In this document: positions 2,169 to 19,893 of the stretch, in pieces
Position numbering within the stretch: the stretch's first letter is position 1
How the letters are laid out: each line of letters opens with the position of its first letter
DNA from: Bondarzewia mesenterica
Lineage: Eukaryota; Basidiomycota; Agaricomycetes; Russulales; Bondarzewiaceae
Assembly: GCA_004802705.1 (NCBI GenBank)
Contig: SGPL01000591.1
Location: 1 to 19,893 of the forward strand
Length of the DNA stretch: 19,893 nt
Direction: 5' to 3'
The notes under the pieces: model-generated
Seen by the model: the letters and a program-made list of their open reading frames with translations, nothing else
Database searches by the model: none
What the model was told of the DNA's origin: nothing
Translations under genes and position numbers: made by a program

Positions 2169-2416
2169 TGTTAAGACCATGCTTGGGCAGGGATGCGGAG
2201 GCCTAATGGGTAGCTCGTGTATGCCGTTGCCTGGTACTTAAGGTCGATCAGGGTGGGACCACCCAGGCATCTAGCCCAGATGGCCCAGTCGTCTTAGTCT
2301 GTCAAGGGTTCTAGTTAAGAACAAAGTAGATTCAAAGGTTCAGGTGGTCTAGTACCCTAGTTGCTAGGCTAGGTTTTAGGAGATCAAGCTAAAGATCTAA
2401 GTACATCAGAGCCCTG

Positions 2417-2424
2417 TATATATA
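2417..2424 (+). promoter_or_regulatory. TATA box in LTR1
   Basis: TATATATA lies about 250 bp into the LTR, flanked by GCCCTG on the left and a partly complementary TATAGGGC on the right. It is placed where a retroelement promoter would start the transcript. The site is conserved in LTR2. This is a prediction from the sequence only. Confidence 0.5.
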
Positions 2425-2612
2425 GTAAAGCGCTATAGGGCAGGTCATCAACAATGGCATGTGTCAGTGGTTCGCGCTAGAAAGGCCATTGGTGGATAAG
2501 TATATCACATGTAAAGAACCAGCGGGGTTCTTGTGGGTCAGGGCCCAGACCGGTCCGGGGTCTGGGTGCATCTATGGTCACGTGATCCGCTGGTCTGATA
2601 GATAAGATAAAG

Positions 2613-2689
2613 ATAGGCGCGTCAGGGCGCCTATATCAGGTCTGTGCGCGTTGCGGCGCGAGTCGCAGTCTGCTAAGTAAGTTAGCAGA
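2613..2689 (+). other. Three hairpins in the 3' part of LTR1
   Basis: Three inverted repeats follow each other. ATAGGCGC at 2613-2620 pairs with GCGCCTAT at 2627-2634 (loop GTCAGG). GCGC at 2646-2649 pairs with GCGC at 2656-2659 around the loop GTTGCG. TCTGCTAA at 2669-2676 pairs with TTAGCAGA at 2682-2689 (loop GTAAG). The middle loop is the same six bases found in several hairpins inside the element. In LTR2 (5995-6071) the first and third stems each carry one mismatch caused by a transition. Confidence 0.6.
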
Positions 2690-2701
2690 TTCAGGTAAGT
2701 T

Positions 2702-2707
2702 AATAAA
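2702..2707 (+). terminator. AATAAA polyadenylation signal in LTR1
   Basis: AATAAA lies 38 bp before the end of the LTR, as expected for the end of the repeated R region of a retroelement transcript. It is kept in LTR2 at 6084-6089. Confidence 0.45.
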
Positions 2708-2830
2708 GTAAAAGCCTACTGATGTAAGCCAGGCCGTTCATGACAACTGCCCACTTACTAGCCTTTTGTCGCCCTTGACAAAACCTAAGGTAGGGTTGGA
2801 GTTGTGTCGTCGTCGTCAGTGTTCGTCTAC

Positions 2831-2995
2831 TAGTTTAAACTCGTTGCGGAGGTGTCGCTAGTTTTCTGTCATCGCAGACAATCTGTCACTAGTTTTACAT
2901 CATTTCAGATGATCTACAGTTTAGTGTCATGTTGGACAATCTACAGTTTAATGTCATGTTGGACATGTTCTCCAGTTTTATGTCATGGTGGACGT
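2831..2995 (+). repeat. Hairpin array, copies 1-6
   Basis: Six units spaced 26-31 bp apart, each with AGTTTT or AGTTTA, then a 3-5 base arm, a six-base loop and the complementary arm. Arms and loops: CTC-gttgcg-GAG (about 2840-2851); TGTC-atcgca-GACA (2867-2880); CATC-atttca-GATG (2898-2911); TGTC-atgttg-GACA (2925-2938); ATGTC-atgttg-GACAT (2951-2966); ATGTC-atggtg-GACGT (2980-2995, one G-T pair). No reading frame explains the pattern. Confidence 0.8.
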
Positions 2996-3115
2996 CTGTG
3001 TGAGAAATGGATCAATGCCTTTCTCATTCGATTGGCAGATCGCTAGCTCTTCATGAGTCGTCTGGGGGTGTCATCCCATCAGTGAAGGGTGTGGGGTTCA
3101 TGTGGTATGGTGTCT

Positions 3116-3202
3116 TAGTTTTACGACATTACGGTCGTCTGAGTCAAGGCCTAGTTTTACGTCTTCGCGGACGTCCATTTAGTTTAACGTCATTTCAGAC
3201 GT
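3116..3202 (+). repeat. Hairpin array, copies 7-9
   Basis: Three units. ACGAC-attacg-GTCGT at 3123-3138; ACGTC-ttcgcg-GACGT at 3159-3174; ACGTC-atttca-GACGT at 3187-3202. All stems are perfect over five pairs and each follows TAGTTTT or TAGTTTA. The first unit replaces the usual GTC/GAC pair by GAC/GTC, a fully compensated change. Confidence 0.85.
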
Positions 3203-3322
3203 GCTTGTTATTCGCATATAGGCCCCAGTCTGGCATAGCCTATATCAGCCGGTGCGACGGGTGGGTTTTCCAAAGTTTAACATGGCCCCTTGTCCACGTC
3301 CGCAGTATCCAGTCCTTGTGGC

Positions 3323-3427
3323 CTAGTTTTACGTCGTCGCGAACGTTTGATAGTTTAAAGTCATTTCGGACTTTCGTTAGTTTTAAGTCGTTGCGGACTT
3401 TCATTAGTTTTAAGTCGTTGCGGACTT
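3323..3427 (+). repeat. Hairpin array, copies 10-13 (27-bp period)
   Basis: Four units in near-tandem. ACGTC-gtcgcg-AACGT at 3331-3346 (one loop-side mismatch from a G-to-A change); AAGTC-atttcg-GACTT at 3358-3373; AAGTC-gttgcg-GACTT at 3385-3400; the same again at 3412-3427. The start-to-start distance is 27 bp for the last four arms. The last two units are nearly identical and look like a recent duplication. Confidence 0.85.
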
Positions 3428-3479
3428 TGTGGAGTTAGAGTAAAAAAGTTTTGTTTTCCTCTTTGTTGCTCATTGCCCT

Positions 3480-3965
3480 AGGCCCTTCACCGGATAGTCT
3501 TAGCGTCGCTCTTCTTCCTTCGCTTCAGACTGCGTTCACCTCTCGGCTCACTTGTCTTGTGCAGTCATTCCTCGCTTAGGCAGACCTATCTTGTCGGCTA
3601 GGACCGGGCATTCTTCACTCCATTTTCTCTTTTTTCTCGCCTTCCGACTACCGCTCCAGGCTCGGATAGCTCGTCCGCTTCGTTCGAGCCCCTCGTCACT
3701 CCGCTCGTCAGGCTCTTCCGCAATCCAGCCAGAGGCCCTCCTCCTGTCTGCTTTGTTCCTTGCAGACATCGTCGGTGGTCCAAGGTCACTCATCATTCCC
3801 TGCATTCCTTGCTCCCTTGTCCCTGTCTCTGTCTGATTGCTGCCTTTCCTCCTCTTTCCTCGAGGCTCGTCCTTGCCTCCTCACTATCTCCGAGGCTCGC
3901 TCCCTGCTCGCCTCTCTCCGTTCCATGCTTCCACTACCCCCGATCAACCCGTAGCTTGCCCTCAA
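3480..3965. other. Pyrimidine-rich tract inside element A
   Basis: About 480 bp in which the plus strand is strongly rich in C and T (many CTTCC, CCTC and TTCGCTTC words). Several overlapping open frames exist here on both strands in different phases, which is expected when stop codons are rare for reasons of composition. I do not regard them as genes. One copy of the TACCCCCGATCA motif lies at its right end (3935-3946). Confidence 0.55.
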
Positions 3966-4042
3966 GCTACATGTGGTTCAAACATGCTCCTTCTATTCTT
4001 GTTTTAGACTAGAAGGGCGAGTTGAAAGGAAAAAAATTTCCC

Positions 4043-4065
4043 TAGTTTTGCATCGTTGCGGATGT
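4043..4065 (+). repeat. Hairpin copy 14
   Basis: TAGTTTT followed by GCATC-gttgcg-GATGT (4050-4065). The four inner pairs CATC/GATG are perfect and the outer one is G-T. It stands alone between the CT-rich tract and T-rich sequence. Confidence 0.75.
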
Positions 4066-4206
4066 TTATTTTCTTCTTTTTTTCTTCTTCTTTCCAGTAG
4101 ATCTATGACTGGTGCGGTCTACTCATCTCATTCGAGTTGTAGGTCCCGTTCGATTAGACCTTCTTCGTCGTTAGGAATCCTGTGGCTTGTGGTGTTCCTA
4201 AATCGC

Positions 4207-4338
4207 TAGCTTTACGTCTTTGCGGACATTCTTGTCATGTTCTAGTTTAACATCGTTCCGGACGTCTTTGAGCTATCTTGCTCATGTGGAGTTTTGCAAA
4301 GCTCCGCATGTTCTCCAGTTTTATGTCATGGTGGACAT
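4207..4338 (+). repeat. Hairpin copies 15-17 and two other small hairpins
   Basis: ACGTC-tttgcg-GACAT at 4214-4229 and ACATC-gttccg-GACGT at 4250-4265 each have one mismatch that a single CG to CA change explains. ATGTC-atggtg-GACAT at 4323-4338 is perfect. Between them lie GAGC-tatctt-GCTC (4270-4283) and GGAG-ttttgcaaag-CTCC (4288-4305). The latter belongs to the second hairpin class seen again at 5417-5507. Confidence 0.75.
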
Positions 4339-4440
4339 CTTCATCGTTCGTTCAAATTGCGCCTCATGCGCGGATGGTTTATGATAAGCGGCGCAGCATC
4401 GCCTTTATAGGGCGGGTCCAGCTCATCATTGGTAAGGTTC

Positions 4441-4586
4441 TTCTATGCCTCCCTATTGGGTAACCTGGCATTGTCGTGTAAGAGGTCTACTGCTACTCCC
4501 TATTGGGAACCCTGTAGCTGTAGTGTAAGAGGGCAATATCTTCTGTGCCTCCCTATTGGGAAACCTGGCACTGTCGCATAAGAGGG
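4441..4586 (+). repeat. Three-copy repeat with CTCCCTATTGGG core
   Basis: The core CTCCCTATTGGG, followed by AACCTGGCA-type sequence and TAAGAGG, occurs three times in a row (cores at about 4449, 4496 and 4549). Copies one and three are closest, sharing TTCTRTGCCTCCCTATTGGG; the middle copy is shorter and more diverged. No open frame runs through all copies. Confidence 0.75.
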
Positions 4587-4592
4587 TATTCA

Positions 4593-4668
4593 TAGTTTAA
4601 AGTCTTTACGGACTGTGTCGTTGTGCTGCTGTCAGGACTGTGGTACGGTAACATTGTACCCCCGATCA
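4593..4668 (+). repeat. Hairpin copy 18 in a duplicated unit (first copy)
   Basis: TAGTTTA followed by AAGTC-tttacg-GACTG (4600-4615), four perfect pairs. Further on comes GTCAGGAC (about 4631-4638), a second small inverted repeat using the same GTC/GAC word, and the unit ends with TACCCCCGATCA. It lines up over its whole length with 4962-5036. Confidence 0.75.
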
Positions 4669-4935
4669 AACTTGTGGTGGGGATGTGGATGTCATCTACT
4701 TGAGCAGGGTTCCTCTAGGGAATTCACCCAAGTCTCAAGTAGAGTGTAAGTAGGATTCGGCGCATTATCGTGGCGCTAGACGTCTGTGCGTTACAGGTCA
4801 AAGCCCTAGTCTCATTCGGCTAGGGGATCGCTGGCTCCGCAGGTTTCTTCAGGGTGTATCGTCCCTTTGGTGGAGGTAGTTATCATCGTACCCCCGATCA
4901 GGTCTTTACCCCCGATCAGGGTTGTAGTAGGGATC

Positions 4936-5036
4936 TAGTTTAACGTCGTCGCGAACGATCATAGTTTTAAGCCATTACGGGCTATAGTCGTTCTCCTGCC
5001 GGGGCTAGTGGCACGGTGTCATTGTACCCCTGATCA
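4936..5036 (+). repeat. Hairpin copies 19-20; second copy of the duplicated unit
   Basis: ACGTC-gtcgcg-AACGA at 4943-4958 is partly decayed. The next unit has AAGCC-attacg-GGCTA at 4969-4984 with four perfect pairs. Compared with 4593-4668, the word GTC/GAC has changed to GCC/GGC in the main hairpin, and GTCAGGAC has become GCCGGGGC in the small one. Both sides of each stem changed together, so pairing is kept. Confidence 0.75.
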
Positions 5037-5121
5037 GGTTGGAGCCCCATGTGTGGGGTGTCGGTGTGGTTGATGATTCTAGATGTGGGATGTGTCAATT
5101 CCCATATGATAGCACGGTCCT

Positions 5122-5171
5122 TAGTTTAATGTCGTTACGGACGTCTTGTAGTTTTACATCATTACGGATGT
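5122..5171 (+). repeat. Hairpin copies 21-22
   Basis: ATGTC-gttacg-GACGT at 5129-5144 (one G-T pair) and ACATC-attacg-GATGT at 5156-5171 (perfect), 27 bp apart, each preceded by TAGTTTA or TAGTTTT. These are the last copies before LTR2. Confidence 0.8.
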
Positions 5172-5416
5172 TCCATCATTTCTTCGTTCGGGTTCCTGGA
5201 TCATCTTGTCATCAGTCACACATGTTTGCTGATCTCACACAGATGTCTGTTGCTCTCGCCAGACACTCCTGTGCACCTTGGGGGATCTCCGAAGATCACC
5301 ACCCTTGGTCATACGGGTCACTCAGGTGTTTAGCCCTCAAGCGTGCCCTGGAGATACTATAATGTGTAACTGGAATCCTGGGTGTTGCAGGAGTTCGGGT
5401 TCGAGGTAGGGTTCAT

Positions 5417-5507
5417 GGGGTGCGCTACTTCCCGAGTTATCACGCCATTTCATGGAGTGTGCTAAGCTCCGAGTTATAGCACGTCGTCTTGGGGTGCGCC
5501 AAGCCCC
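5417..5507 (+). repeat. 37-bp-period repeat with a second hairpin class
   Basis: Three diverged units begin at 5417, 5454 and 5491. Unit two holds GGAG-tgtgctaag-CTCC, unit three GGGG-tgcgccaag-CCCC and unit one a GGG/CCC version with a longer loop. The A/T pair of unit two is a G/C pair in unit three, so the stem is kept although both arms changed. A relative, GGAG-ttttgcaaag-CTCC, lies at 4288-4305. The rest of 5172-5550 holds a GATCT-ccga-AGATC stem (5284-5297) and no gene. Confidence 0.65.
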
Positions 5508-5550
5508 AGCATGTCGCGCATCGTTCGTCAGGTTTGGGAGCTTGATCTAA

Positions 5551-6127
5551 TGTTAAGACCATGCTTGGGCAGGGACGCGGAGGCCTAATGGGTAGCTCGT
5601 GTATGCCGTTGCCTGGTACTTAAGGTCGATCAGGGTGGGACCACCCAGGCATCTAGCCCAGATGGCCCAGTCATCTTAGTCTGTCAAGGGTTCTGGTTAA
5701 GAACAAAGTAGATTCAAAGGTTCAGGTGGTCTAGTACCCTAGTTGCTAGGCTAGGTTTTAGGAGATCAAGCTAAAGATCTAAGTACATCAGAGCCCTGTA
5801 TATATAGTAAAGCGCTATAGGGCAGGTCATCAACAATGGCATGTGTCAGTGGTTCGCGCTAGAAAGGCCATTGGTGGATAAGTATATCACATGTAAAGAA
5901 CCAGCGGGGTTCTTGTGGGTCAGGGCCCAGACCGGTCCAGGGTCTGGGTGCATCTATGGTCACGTGATCCACTGGTCTGATAGATAAGATAAAGATAGGC
6001 ACGTCAGGGCGCCTATATCAGGTCTGTGCGCGTTGCGGCGCGAGTCGCAGTCCGCTAAGTAAGTTAGCAGATTCAGGTAAGTTAATAAAATAAAAGCCTG
6101 CTCATGTAAGCCAGACCGTTCATGACA
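5551..6127 (+). repeat. Element A LTR2
   Basis: Second 577-bp LTR, same ends and length as LTR1. Its TATATATA is at 5799-5806 and AATAAA at 6084-6089. The last bases, TTCATGACA, run straight into an integrase frame and read as Phe-Met-Thr, the residues expected there in the intact protein. The exact end of the LTR is therefore hidden by shared sequence. Confidence 0.85.
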
Positions 6128-7528
6128 TCAATCTATGGGCAACTCGGGATCAAGGCAGCCCTGAGCACAGCTTTCCATCCTCAGTCAGACGGAGCCACGG
6201 AACGAGTCAACCAGGAACTAGAACAATACCTTCGAGCCTTCTGCACTAAGGCGCAAGACAATTGGCCTAGCCTTCTTCCTTACGCTGAGTTTGCACATAA
6301 CAACCATATACACGCGGCCACCAAGAAGTCCCCATTCGAACTCCTCCATGGATTCCAGGCCAAAGCCTATCCCATAATCAAACCAGACGAACAAGTTCCA
6401 GGCTCAGAAGAATGGCTCAACAAATTGATTAAGGCACGCGAAGAAGCTAGAGCCAGCATAGCCCTCGCAGCTGAGTCGATGAAATGGCAGCACGACAAAT
6501 TAGGAGACCCGCCCAAAGCCCTTTGCCTCCTCGGAGATAAGGTCTGGCTCAGCGGGAAGAACCTCGCAATGGCGTACCCTAAGAAGAAGTTTGCGCCAAG
6601 GCGTTATGGACCATTCAAAATCATCAAGGTTCTAGGAAAGGTCAATTTCAAACTGAAGCTTCCAGAAGCATGGCGAATCCACCCCATTTTTCATCGATCA
6701 TTGCTCATCCCTTTCAAAGAAATGGATGAACACGGCCCCAACTTCACGGAACCACCACCAGACCTAGTAGACAACCAGGCAGAATACGAAGTTGAACAAG
6801 TCGCGGCTTCATGGCACTTTGGACGAAACAAAACCCTCCAGTACCTGGTCAAGTGAAAAGGCTATCTGGAGTCAGAAAACACGTGGGAACCCGCGGCCAA
6901 CCTCAAACGATCGAAAGCCATCGTCAATGAATTCCACCGGAAAAACCCGTTATCAGCCAAAAGCGCTCAAAGGAAACCTACACCGCCCTTGAGGCCCAAA
7001 AAGCCACCTTTCGATCAGATCCCTCAATCAGCACAAGAACTCCGTTCTCACACGTCAGGACTTCCTGTCACGCGGTCACCAGGATATCTTCCCACATGGC
7101 ACCGCATGACTCTAGAAGACATGGAAGAAGAAGCGGAGCAGAAACGAGAGGACGACCTCATTCGAGAAAGCATTCAGCAAATGCGGCGAGAACGGGAACA
7201 ACGACTGATACCACCCCCACGACCTCTGGCACCAAGAGGATGGACTAAATTCTTTGATCAGCCAACCCCGAAACCGACCATCAATCTAGACCAAACTATC
7301 AGAACAGTGGAGTTGAGTCCACATGGGACGGACAAGCCCTACATGGACCCATCAAAGGCACCACATGGAAGCATAGATACCGGTTCATCGAGCACAAGCT
7401 ACGCACTTGGGAGCGAATCAGGAAATGACGCCGACAGGGAAGACTCGACCCCAGAGTCAGACACACCCTCAAAAATCATCTTAGCAAGCACAGACCCCTT
7501 GTGCGAGCATTGCGAGTACCCACCATAG
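6122..7528 (+). pseudogene. Ty3/gypsy chromovirus polyprotein, integrase C-terminal part and chromodomain
   Basis: Integrase joins retroelement DNA to the chromosome; the chromodomain directs it to marked chromatin. From 6122 one frame runs to TAA/TAG at 7528. Residues about 18-33 read FHPQSDGATERVNQEL, the block with the third acidic catalytic residue (probably Glu27). A GPY/F-type motif, RYGPF, lies at about 161-165. The chromodomain starts near residue 222 (YEVEQVAASWHFGR) and continues LESENTWEPA. It is cut by a single TGA at 6854-6856, in YLVK-stop-KGY, where the family has Trp; TGG to TGA explains it. A charged tail of about 200 residues follows with no domain I know. Protease, reverse transcriptase, RNase H and the first two catalytic acids of integrase are missing, because LTR2 abuts the frame. 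The ATG at 6122 is only an internal Met. Confidence 0.88.
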
Positions 7529-18857: not shown

Positions 18858-19893
18858 GACTTCCAACAATGCCTCGGATATAAAGAAGGCTTCCACAGTG
18901 AAAGAGAATAAGTCCTCGGAAATAGCAAGAAAGAAAGCCAAGGCTGCTACCCCTTCCAAAAAAGAAAAGAAACCCATCAGACATGTACAGTGCAAACTCA
19001 GTAAGTGTAAAGTGCATGCAGTATTTTGAGTACTCACTGACATTGCCCAAGAGTGTGAGTATGCATTCATAATGGATGAATCTAGCAATGAGCTAAATGA
19101 GAAGCTGTGAGGGATGAGTGAGTAAAATTTCCATGCAGTATTCATTCAATACTAATATGTGATTATGCAGACAAGATGCAAAAGTCTCAGTGTGATATTG
19201 AATGTGACCACAGGGAAACAGGAGAAGACATAGAGGTTGAGATGGATATCGACAGTAGTAATGAGAAAGAGCTCAGTCAAGAATCTGATGGCAAGATGGA
19301 AGATGATGATGAGTTGATGGAGATGGCAAACAAAAATTCAAAGAATCTTCAGCAGATGTATACAATGGAGGTGAGCTGGTAAACTTATAATTAAAACCAG
19401 ATTGAAGGTCTTTAACATAAATTTCAGAGGCCCCAGTGGGAAGAATCAGATGAAGGGAAAAACAATCGAGGTCAGCATAGTGCCACAAATGAAGACAGCA
19501 ATGCTAAAGAAGATAATAATGCAGGAAAAATCATGACAAAGATGGAGATGATGGTGCGAATGGTAGTGATGGTGTGAATGGTAGTGATGGTGCAAATAGT
19601 GGTGATGGTGCAAATGGCAGTGATGGCACAAATGGTGGCGATAGTGCAAATGGCATCAATGGCATGAACAGTGGTGATGGTGCAAATAGTGGTAATAATG
19701 TGAATGATAGTGATGAGATGGCAGATGGCCATGACAAAGAGCAACACAATGGCATGGATGATAGTATGGATGATGATATGTATAAGGGTGACCACAGAGA
19801 TTGAGATGATGGAGCAGATAACTCTGAGAGGGCCACCCACCATGATGGATATGACTATACAGATAGTGGCAATGGTGAGCTGTCAGCTGGTGA
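18858..19893 (+). pseudogene. Multi-exon acidic protein of unknown function, partial
   Basis: Four exons fit one reading phase: about 18858-19000, 19052-19117, 19171-19370, 19428-19893. The introns are 19001-19051 (GTAAGT, CTGAC branch-like), 19118-19170 (GTGAGT, TACTAAT, GCAG) and 19371-19427 (GTGAGC..TCAG), of 51, 53 and 57 nt. Exon 1 is basic (KKASTVKENKSSEIARKKAK). Exon 2 reads CEYAFIMDESSNELNEKL then TGA, a likely CGA to TGA change. Exon 3 is acidic (EDIEVEMDIDSSNEKE). Exon 4 starts RPQWEESDEGKNN, shifts frame at an A run near 19530 and then enters an Asn/Gly/Ser/Asp repeat. TGA at about 19802 cuts the last part, and the frame runs on to the window edge. The basic then acidic make-up suggests a nuclear or chromatin-linked protein, but no domain is recognisable. 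Start and end lie outside what I can define. Confidence 0.5.
19545..19715 (+). repeat. Imperfect tandem repeat coding Asn-Gly-Ser-Asp-Gly
   Basis: Units of about 18 bases of the type GATGGTGCAAATGGTAGT are repeated roughly nine times with substitutions. In the best frame they give ANGSDG-like residues, for example GANSGDGANGSDGTNGGD. On minus the same DNA gives Thr/Ile/His-rich frames that are only shadows. The protein part would be flexible and low-complexity. Confidence 0.7.

Follow-up and report, generated by a model that had tools for sequence, protein, structure and literature searches.

A putatively self-priming, gene-less LTR retrotransposon of Bondarzewia mesenterica with an array of about 22 GNRA-type hairpins whose arms covary

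The basidiomycete Bondarzewia mesenterica carries, on a contig of 19,893 nucleotides (SGPL01000591.1, analysed at its full length and called the window; contig C545 of the 33 Mb genome that was surveyed), an element along which one type of short inverted repeat recurs. A preliminary description of the sequence had reported about 22 hairpins at positions 2831-5171, all in the same direction, with a conserved flank and loop and with arms that differ between copies while staying complementary. The locus raises the question of what keeps these arms paired, on which strand the structure would be read, and what use a retroelement without genes would have for it. On the best reading the element, which extends from 2169 to 6127 with its internal region at 2746-5550, is a non-autonomous long terminal repeat (LTR) retrotransposon without recognisable genes that resembles the large retrotransposon derivatives (LARDs) and has Tf1-like priming signals. 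The hairpin units are distributed as follows, the strand being that of the predicted RNA.

2831..3427, minus strand: 13 hairpin units of 23 bp each, starting at 2831, 2859, 2890, 2917, 2944, 2973, 3116, 3152, 3180, 3324, 3351, 3378 and 3405
4043..4338, minus strand: four hairpin units, starting at 4043, 4207, 4243 and 4316
4593..5171, minus strand: five hairpin units, starting at 4593, 4936, 4962, 5122 and 5149

The flank pattern (TAGTTTW, CAGTTTW, GAGTTTW or TAGCTTT) occurs at 23 places in 2831-5171, all on the plus strand, and 22 of these are hairpin units (flank TAGTTTW in 17, CAGTTTW in four and TAGCTTT in one); the place at 4289 does not have the unit form. When a strict test was applied (exact AGTTT[TA] and at least four of five arm pairs), the internal region contained 20 units on the plus strand and none on the minus strand, and 300 dinucleotide shuffles gave a mean of 0.24 units and a maximum of 2. 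Thus, the reported number and common direction of the hairpins hold, and shuffled sequence of the same composition does not give as many units. No strict unit is present in the window outside the element; the LTRs were not included in this count, but the flank scan of the whole window lists none there. At least four pairs are formed at 20 of the 24 AGTTT[TA] sites of the internal region, and none of the 16 such sites outside the element exceeds three. The count of perfect inverted repeats of at least 6 bases in the internal region is not decisive (8, against a mean of 3.6 and a maximum of 8 in 40 shuffles). All the arm pairs quoted in the preliminary description (AAGTC/GACTT, ACGTC/GACGT, ACATC/GATGT, ACGAC/GTCGT, AGCC/GGCT and TGTC/GACA) are present, and the spacing of 26-31 bp that it noted does recur (28, 31, 27, 27, 29; 28; 27, 27, 27; 26; 27). 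Tandem 27-bp runs are present. Columns 2-6 of the flank are nearly constant (109 of 110 cells), and the columns outside the unit vary freely.

Two further full internal regions, copies A and B, lie in tandem on contig C471 (locus L011) in the order LTR-internal-LTR-internal-LTR, without a matching target-site duplication. They are 93% identical to the window copy and 98% identical to each other. Older, shortened relatives with array units are present on C762, C736 (a 98% copy of C762), C106, C648 and C226. When the genome was surveyed with the hairpin pattern, 66 hits were obtained; the seven contigs that carry arrays account for 58 of them and other contigs for 8. The reversed pattern, used as control, gave 5. 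A host-type gene on a further contig has its best named matches in the Russulales Artomyces (56% identity) and Vararia (48%), in keeping with an agaricomycete host.

These copies made it possible to follow the arms both within and between arrays. Among the 22 window units (21 distinct rows) 89.5% of the cells are paired, against 75.1% after shuffling, and covariation is 0.423 against 0.140, with none of 500 shuffles as high; sliding the partners lowers pairing to 14-49%. The outermost pair is weak, being unpaired in 6 of the 21 rows, and the inner pairs are formed in 83 of 88 cells. In the 80 units (68 distinct rows) recovered by a model that used sequence only, 95.8% of the cells are paired against 82.4%, and double-changed cells number 40 against 12.3; as the model is local, the outer positions of this set contain many gaps. 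Against a tree-based null (72 units, inner four pairs; the tree was built from 23 non-stem columns, with a single simple model of substitution) pairing is 91.3% versus 76.1%, double-changed cells 55 versus 16 and covariation 0.511 versus 0.195, and none of 400 simulations reaches the observed values. The 72 rows were taken from 82, those with N or identical to another being dropped; L018, a 98% copy of L016, was left out. Rows from other loci were chosen by scans that seek pairing or score structure, inserted or weak-score hits being omitted, so that the percentages for L011, L016, L017, L019 and L045 lean towards pairing. The sequence-only set is free of this bias, and so is a reading of orthologous places in which pairing was not required: there copy A (20 units) has 76 of the 80 cells of the inner four pairs formed, and copy B (18 units) 69 of 72. 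In the older relatives 80-88% of the inner cells are paired, figures that are biased in the same direction. Together these results indicate that the covariation goes beyond phylogeny and that the pairing is kept in other genomic copies of the element. With the shuffle counts given above, the preliminary description thereby passes both of the tests that it had set for itself.

How far paired changes argue for selection is a separate matter. CpG sites in the arms change fast (11 of 44 between the window and copy B), and both arms often hold a CpG, so that matched transitions can arise by chance. Unit 3152 reads ACGTC TTCGCG GACGT in the window and has the arms ATATC/GATAT in copies A and B; the window arms and loop are those found at unit 4207 of copy A, and the unit may therefore be a copy of another unit and not a compensated series. 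Unit 4962 has AAGCC/GGCTA in the window versus ATGTC/GACAA, and no donor unit was seen for it in the comparison of copies. When all helices of at least 5 bp with spans to about 80 are considered, the excess of compensated pairs is modest (21 and 24 against null means of 12.7 and 13.6; 15 and 6 of 500 as high); it is stronger for short hairpins. Transversions on both sides of a pair that leave the pairing intact are beyond the reach of CpG decay. Among stems of at least 6 bp whose loops measure 3-12, pairing survived every double transversion (2 of 2 in copy A, equalled by 13 of 2000 permutations, and 3 of 3 in copy B, equalled by 1 of 2000), and such changes occur at 3745/3768, 3954/3967 and, in copy B, 4592/4616. 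The view that compensated changes argue for selection thus stands in so far as the arms are kept paired within and between copies, and is qualified by CpG decay, copying between units and template switching, which can also give matched arms.

The features that delimit the element and define its reading direction are the following.

2169..2745, minus strand: LTR, the 3' LTR in RNA sense, 577 bp, TG...CA, 98.1% identical to 5551-6127, with single copies elsewhere in the genome
5551..6127, minus strand: LTR, the 5' LTR in RNA sense, 577 bp
5799..5806, minus strand: TATA-like box TATATATA in the sense 5' LTR, starting 34 nt before the self-primer
5763..5772, minus strand: predicted RNA 5' end AGCTTGATCT, complementary to the primer-binding site over 10 nt (self-primer)
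5535..5550, minus strand: primer-binding site TTAGATCAAGCTCCCA, directly after the sense 5' LTR, containing the 10-nt complement of the self-primer
2746..2763, minus strand: purine-rich tract GGCTAGTAAGTGGGCAGT ahead of the sense 3' LTR, GGCTAGTGAGGGGGCAGT in copies A and B

The stretch 2169-6127 is one LTR retrotransposon of 3,959 bp with an internal region of 2,805 bp and ends TG...CA. Its two LTRs differ at 11 positions. No target-site duplication surrounds the window copy (AGTGG before 2169, TCAAT after 6127), and a single LTR at L012 is flanked on both sides by TTAAA. Another single LTR of the family, at L010 (C384), lies between copia pieces in a copia reverse-transcriptase region. The element has no recognisable genes: none of the eight stop-to-stop frames of at least 70 aa in the internal region (longest 144 aa) has a Pfam match up to E 0.01, and no gag or pol domain and no reverse transcriptase or integrase of the Tf1/sushi type was found there with Pfam. 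Two LTRs around an internal region without gag or pol, as in a LARD, are therefore present. A search of Rfam gave no match at gathering in the whole window and none up to E 1 in 2169-6127, and hence no hammerhead ribozyme or 5S-like domain as in retrozymes or Cassandra; a tRNA search found none. A gypsy fragment with a Tf2-1-like SH3 domain (6122-6856) starts at the LTR edge, outside the LTRs, and four frames of at least 60 aa before 2169 are unlike the missing part of this fragment.

The RNA strand is most likely the minus strand, as judged from the primer-binding site with its self-primer, the purine tract and the A-richness. The 16 nt after the sense 5' LTR include AGATCAAGCT, whose exact complement lies in the sense LTR 34 nt from the start of TATATATA. 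A primer-binding site complementary to the 5' end of the own RNA, as in Tf1/sushi elements, is thus present over 10 nt, the transcript start being predicted. A match of this length was reached by 1 of 2000 shuffled 16-mers; it is kept at 10 nt in copies A and B and in L017, and at 8 nt in L019. The plus strand offers self-primer matches of 7 or 6 nt at best, located elsewhere. In the internal region the minus strand is A-rich (926 A, against 498 T), and it is on this strand that a primer-binding site and a polypurine tract, again as in LARDs, are found. The plus strand on which the preliminary description had read the hairpins was thus probably the wrong one.

Read on the minus strand, the loop described as NTTNCG becomes Y-G-N-R-A-N. 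GNRA is a rule for RNA hairpin loops. It is followed in 18 of the 22 window units by five kinds of loop (GCAA, GCGA, GAAA, GUAA and GGAA); the L011 units without N in the loop have GNRA in 24 of 34 cases and ANRA in 4, and the older relatives together have 9 GNRA and 14 ANRA, as expected from C-to-T decay. Of the 80 units without N at the loop ends, 73 have a pyrimidine at both, 6 have C first and A last, and 1 (L016) has U first and A last, so that the loop ends make a Watson-Crick pair in only 1 of 80. The predicted minus-strand unit consists of a 5-bp stem, a Y.N mismatch, a GNRA-type cap and then 3' WAAACUA, and its loop follows G-N-R-A, with variable N and R, behind a mismatch and not behind a pair. 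When folded alone, 21 of the 22 minus-strand units give the hexaloop hairpin, three of these with three pairs only. Because the strand was probably misread, the GNRA nature of the loops had been missed. Between orthologous units (18 of the 22 were used, the rest being missing or shifted in the alignment) the loops change readily, at 18 and 16 of 105 sites; the flank changed at 1 of 119 non-CpG sites between the window and copy B against 94 of 1973 elsewhere (p 0.04). Of the conserved flank and NTTNCG loop first described, the flank is therefore near-constant and would lie 3' of the stem, and the loop is labile and more likely YGNRAN.

The hairpin family does not stand alone: further structured modules had been missed in the preliminary description.

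4445..4571, minus strand: second family, three hairpins with constant core TCCCTATTGGG and paired arm differences ATGCC/GGCAT, GCTAC/GTAGC and GTGCC/GGCAC
5087..5115, no strand assigned: third family, copy P1, in which helices of 4 bp and 6 bp cross, either as a pseudoknot or as two competing hairpins
5417..5519, no strand assigned: third family, copies P2-P4 at 5417, 5454 and 5491, exact 37-bp steps, beside the primer-binding site
3951..3970, minus strand: 8-bp hairpin with three compensated pairs relative to copies A and B (GTAGCTTG/CAAGCTAC versus GTGTCTC/GAGACAC)
3745..3768, minus strand: 7-bp hairpin, one pair of which has changed from T-A to A-T in copies A and B (compensated transversion)

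The third hairpin of the second family has the arms GCGCC/GGCGC in copy B; with copy A and the window as outgroups, T-A was replaced by C-G on both arms in copy B alone. The core of this family has 9 exact hits in the genome, all in C545 and C471. When each hairpin is folded by itself, these arms form in the second and third copies but not in the first. In viral contigs the hairpin survey pattern had four hits of one unit each and the second-family core had one, which we took as chance. In the third family (11 distinct rows, identical rows and N-holding rows of copy A not being entered) the 4-bp helix is paired in 97.7% of the cells and the interleaved 6-bp helix in 78.8%, and covariation is 0.464 against 0.300, the former being attained in none of 500 shuffles. 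Other measures make it a weaker case than the main family: pair types number 11 against 11.4, five pairs are changed on both sides (85 of 500 shuffles reach that number), and pairing is still 63.6% after a slide of -2. The third family may be a pseudoknot or two competing hairpins; its likeness to the upstream pseudoknots of tobamoviruses is a resemblance and nothing more. About five occurrences of a further motif, ACCCCCGATCA with at most one base changed, lie in 3938-3950 and 4656-5035. Since folding of the whole region shows no strong excess of stability, we place the signal in local modules, and it is in this form that the conserved RNA secondary structure expected of a LARD is present. 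A long, globally stable fold was considered and is unsupported, with little excess stability that is near-equal on both strands. At the far end of the window, 19549-19687 is a tandem repeat of 18 bp (about 6 copies) or 36 bp (4 copies).

A gene-less LTR element with a primer-binding site and a polypurine tract must borrow reverse transcriptase, Gag and integrase, and one that is self-priming needs a helper that primes in the same way. A candidate is offered by the gypsy family that we call family 2, on the strength of its pol domains, one shared stretch and its own priming layout.

3210..3316, minus strand: stretch with 73-83% identity, at 16 places (L029-L044), to a segment of the LTR of family 2, a gypsy family with pol domains

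An 8-bp stem in this stretch differs from that of family 2 by a C-G to A-T change on both sides, a compensated transversion. The sense strand of family 2 follows from its pol domains: on the minus strand of L051, RNase H and then a Tf2-1-like SH3 domain are read in the direction of the 3' LTR. Gag-like open frames, recognised by look without a family match, come after its primer-binding site in the same sense. The shared stretch has the same orientation as the minus sense of the element. Its counterpart lies upstream of the predicted family-2 start on the sense strand, i.e. in U3, and the idea that the 107 bp were a 5' leader of family 2 was dropped for this reason. The complements of the family-2 primer-binding site measure 11, 11, 11, 6 and 12 nt in five copies, and in L030 the self-primer is likewise 34 nt from the start of TATTTATA. 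The LTRs of family 2 and of the element have no match beyond short words (best E 0.043). No match to the gypsy fragment was found among viral contigs, and a near search of phage records gave no relative.

The element can be compared with several known systems, on which the literature cited here was available in part; the comparisons extend to those parts. LARDs are over about 4 kb, and the element measures 3,959 bp. They have LTRs, an internal region without protein genes and conserved RNA secondary structure, and are exemplified by Sukkula of barley and related grasses and have also been reported from the basidiomycete Laccaria bicolor (PMC7215508, PMC3411680). The element shares these three properties; it differs in its length, its 577-bp LTRs, its self-priming signals and its repeated array of one hairpin motif, which is not seen in these accounts of LARDs. 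In elements of the Tf1/Tj1 type the primer-binding site is complementary to the predicted 5' end of the own RNA (PMC4600332), and the same layout is present in the element and in family 2; since no gag or pol was found in the element, membership of the Tf1/Tj1 clade cannot be shown. The plant terminal-repeat retrotransposon in miniature Cassandra is also gene-less and forms LTR-internal-LTR-internal-LTR tandems (PMC7215508), as on C471; in view of the lack of an Rfam match there is no sign of its 5S-like domain in the element. Packaging and dimerisation stem-loops of retroviruses, with GACG tetraloops and with rat VL30 as a passenger, are likewise hairpins with a short conserved loop in a retroelement RNA (PMC516450), but here about 22 copies lie along the RNA of the element. 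The dispersed packaging signals of RNA viruses likewise consist of many stem-loops that share a short recognition motif and vary otherwise (PMC6281560); those are backed by binding and assembly work, whereas the present case rests on sequence and the candidate helper stretches lack the motif. The statement that no described retrotransposon with such an array was known stands to the extent that we found none in the open-licence literature searched, gene-less LTR elements with conserved RNA structure being known (LARDs, PMC7215508); an array of about 22 GNRA-type hairpins with covarying stems along a gene-less LTR element was not met there.

The structure is well supported; its function is what we infer. 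Our preferred reading, held tentatively and at somewhat less than even chances, is that the element is a gene-less, Tf1-like, self-priming retrotransposon whose minus-strand RNA would carry about 22 GNRA hairpins as multivalent sites for packaging or dimerisation via a helper. The 2.8-kb internal region would be a modular structured RNA in which arms are free to change only as pairs, the hairpin being the recognised RNA structure. The repeated hairpins may act jointly, binding a particle protein or making RNA-RNA contacts in a dimer, and could thereby recruit the gene-less RNA to the particles of a helper, for instance the self-priming gypsy family 2; template switching could help to keep the arms complementary. 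A sharper version, according to which the GNRA-capped hairpins, kept as shape, loop and 3' WAAACUA, form a multivalent assembly code into self-priming gypsy particles with a different LTR, is doubtful; if true, the passenger RNA would carry more handles than its driver. Several results weigh against the preferred reading. Four of the 22 window units, a CAGTTT subtype with loops CAACAU or CACCAU, are not GNRA, single stems are weak (-1.2 to -6.0 kcal/mol), and the whole internal region is not unusually stable (mean z -0.84 on the plus and -0.74 on the minus strand). The flank test is marginal (p 0.055 on A/T sites alone), and the transversion test fails to reach significance for stems of at least 5 bp with loops of 3-8, where there is one such pair and 277 and 431 of the 2000 permutations do as well. 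In several classes slid partners have about as many both-sides-changed pairs as true partners, so that CpG hot spots and clustering have a share in the double changes; for this reason we give more weight to the tree null, the orthologous places and the transversions. One-sided changes of inner pairs are without strand preference (17 G.U-type and 17 A.C-type, summed), so that the hairpin units give no strand information. The third family suits a plus-strand pseudoknot better, which is the chief result against the minus strand and is unexplained. Finally, the array motif has no match in 17 family-2 loci (54.8 kb, parts of family-2 copies), so that a particle protein with affinity for the motif would apparently make no use of it when handling its own RNA.

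These points bear differently on the alternatives. The absence of the motif from the family-2 stretches would suit the same RNA structures doing another job, such as binding a host protein, nuclear retention, silencing or small-RNA production, or dimerisation, and so would the near confinement of the genome hits to the seven array contigs, the 8 elsewhere being set against 5 for the reversed control. This reading as a whole is possible, if not the one we would choose; a host RNA-binding protein or a silencing role is nearly as likely as packaging or dimerisation. It is rather unlikely that the arms are complementary mainly by mutation, through template switching, tandem duplication of 27-bp units and copying between units. 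Template switching is credited with the ability to create and maintain RNA hairpins (PMC8794818), and the tandem 27-bp runs, the near-perfect Watson-Crick pairing without an excess of G.U and the identity of window unit 3152 with copy A unit 4207 in arms and loop would follow from such a process; yet it leaves the constant flank columns 2-6 and the GNRA pattern unexplained, and no such unit lies on the other strand of the internal region. The equal numbers of G.U-type and A.C-type departures, 17 and 17, look as if strand were irrelevant, as they would be for a cruciform or for a two-sided DNA-binding protein site repeated along the element. However, a cruciform would be expected to have arms longer than five bases, and a dyad protein site to retain its half-site sequence, whereas these arms change while staying paired; moreover, the loop obeys an RNA rule on one strand; a DNA-level feature is therefore improbable. 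We give equally little credence to a functional RNA of the plus strand. Only on that strand does the third family have the classical loop lengths of an H-type pseudoknot (1-nt and 6-nt loops over 6-bp and 4-bp stems), and its first helix is paired in 97.7% of the cells with G.U counted on the plus strand; but the excess of G.U rests on few changes, mostly in old copies; the minus strand is indicated by the self-primer, primer-binding site, purine tract and A-richness as well as by the GNRA loops; and in family 2, where the pol domains define the sense, the shared stretch runs in the minus sense.

To our knowledge, it is largely an open question by what means the machinery of others recognises a gene-less retrotransposon. 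In this element the internal region seems to be selected as an RNA shape, in discrete repeated modules and with a candidate helper in the same genome. As the modules are separable one by one, what marks a retroelement RNA for mobilisation would become directly testable, and about 22 sister hairpins evolving side by side are a natural case in which to separate compensatory evolution from template switching. That paired arms change together suggests that RNA shape matters for the spread of the element.

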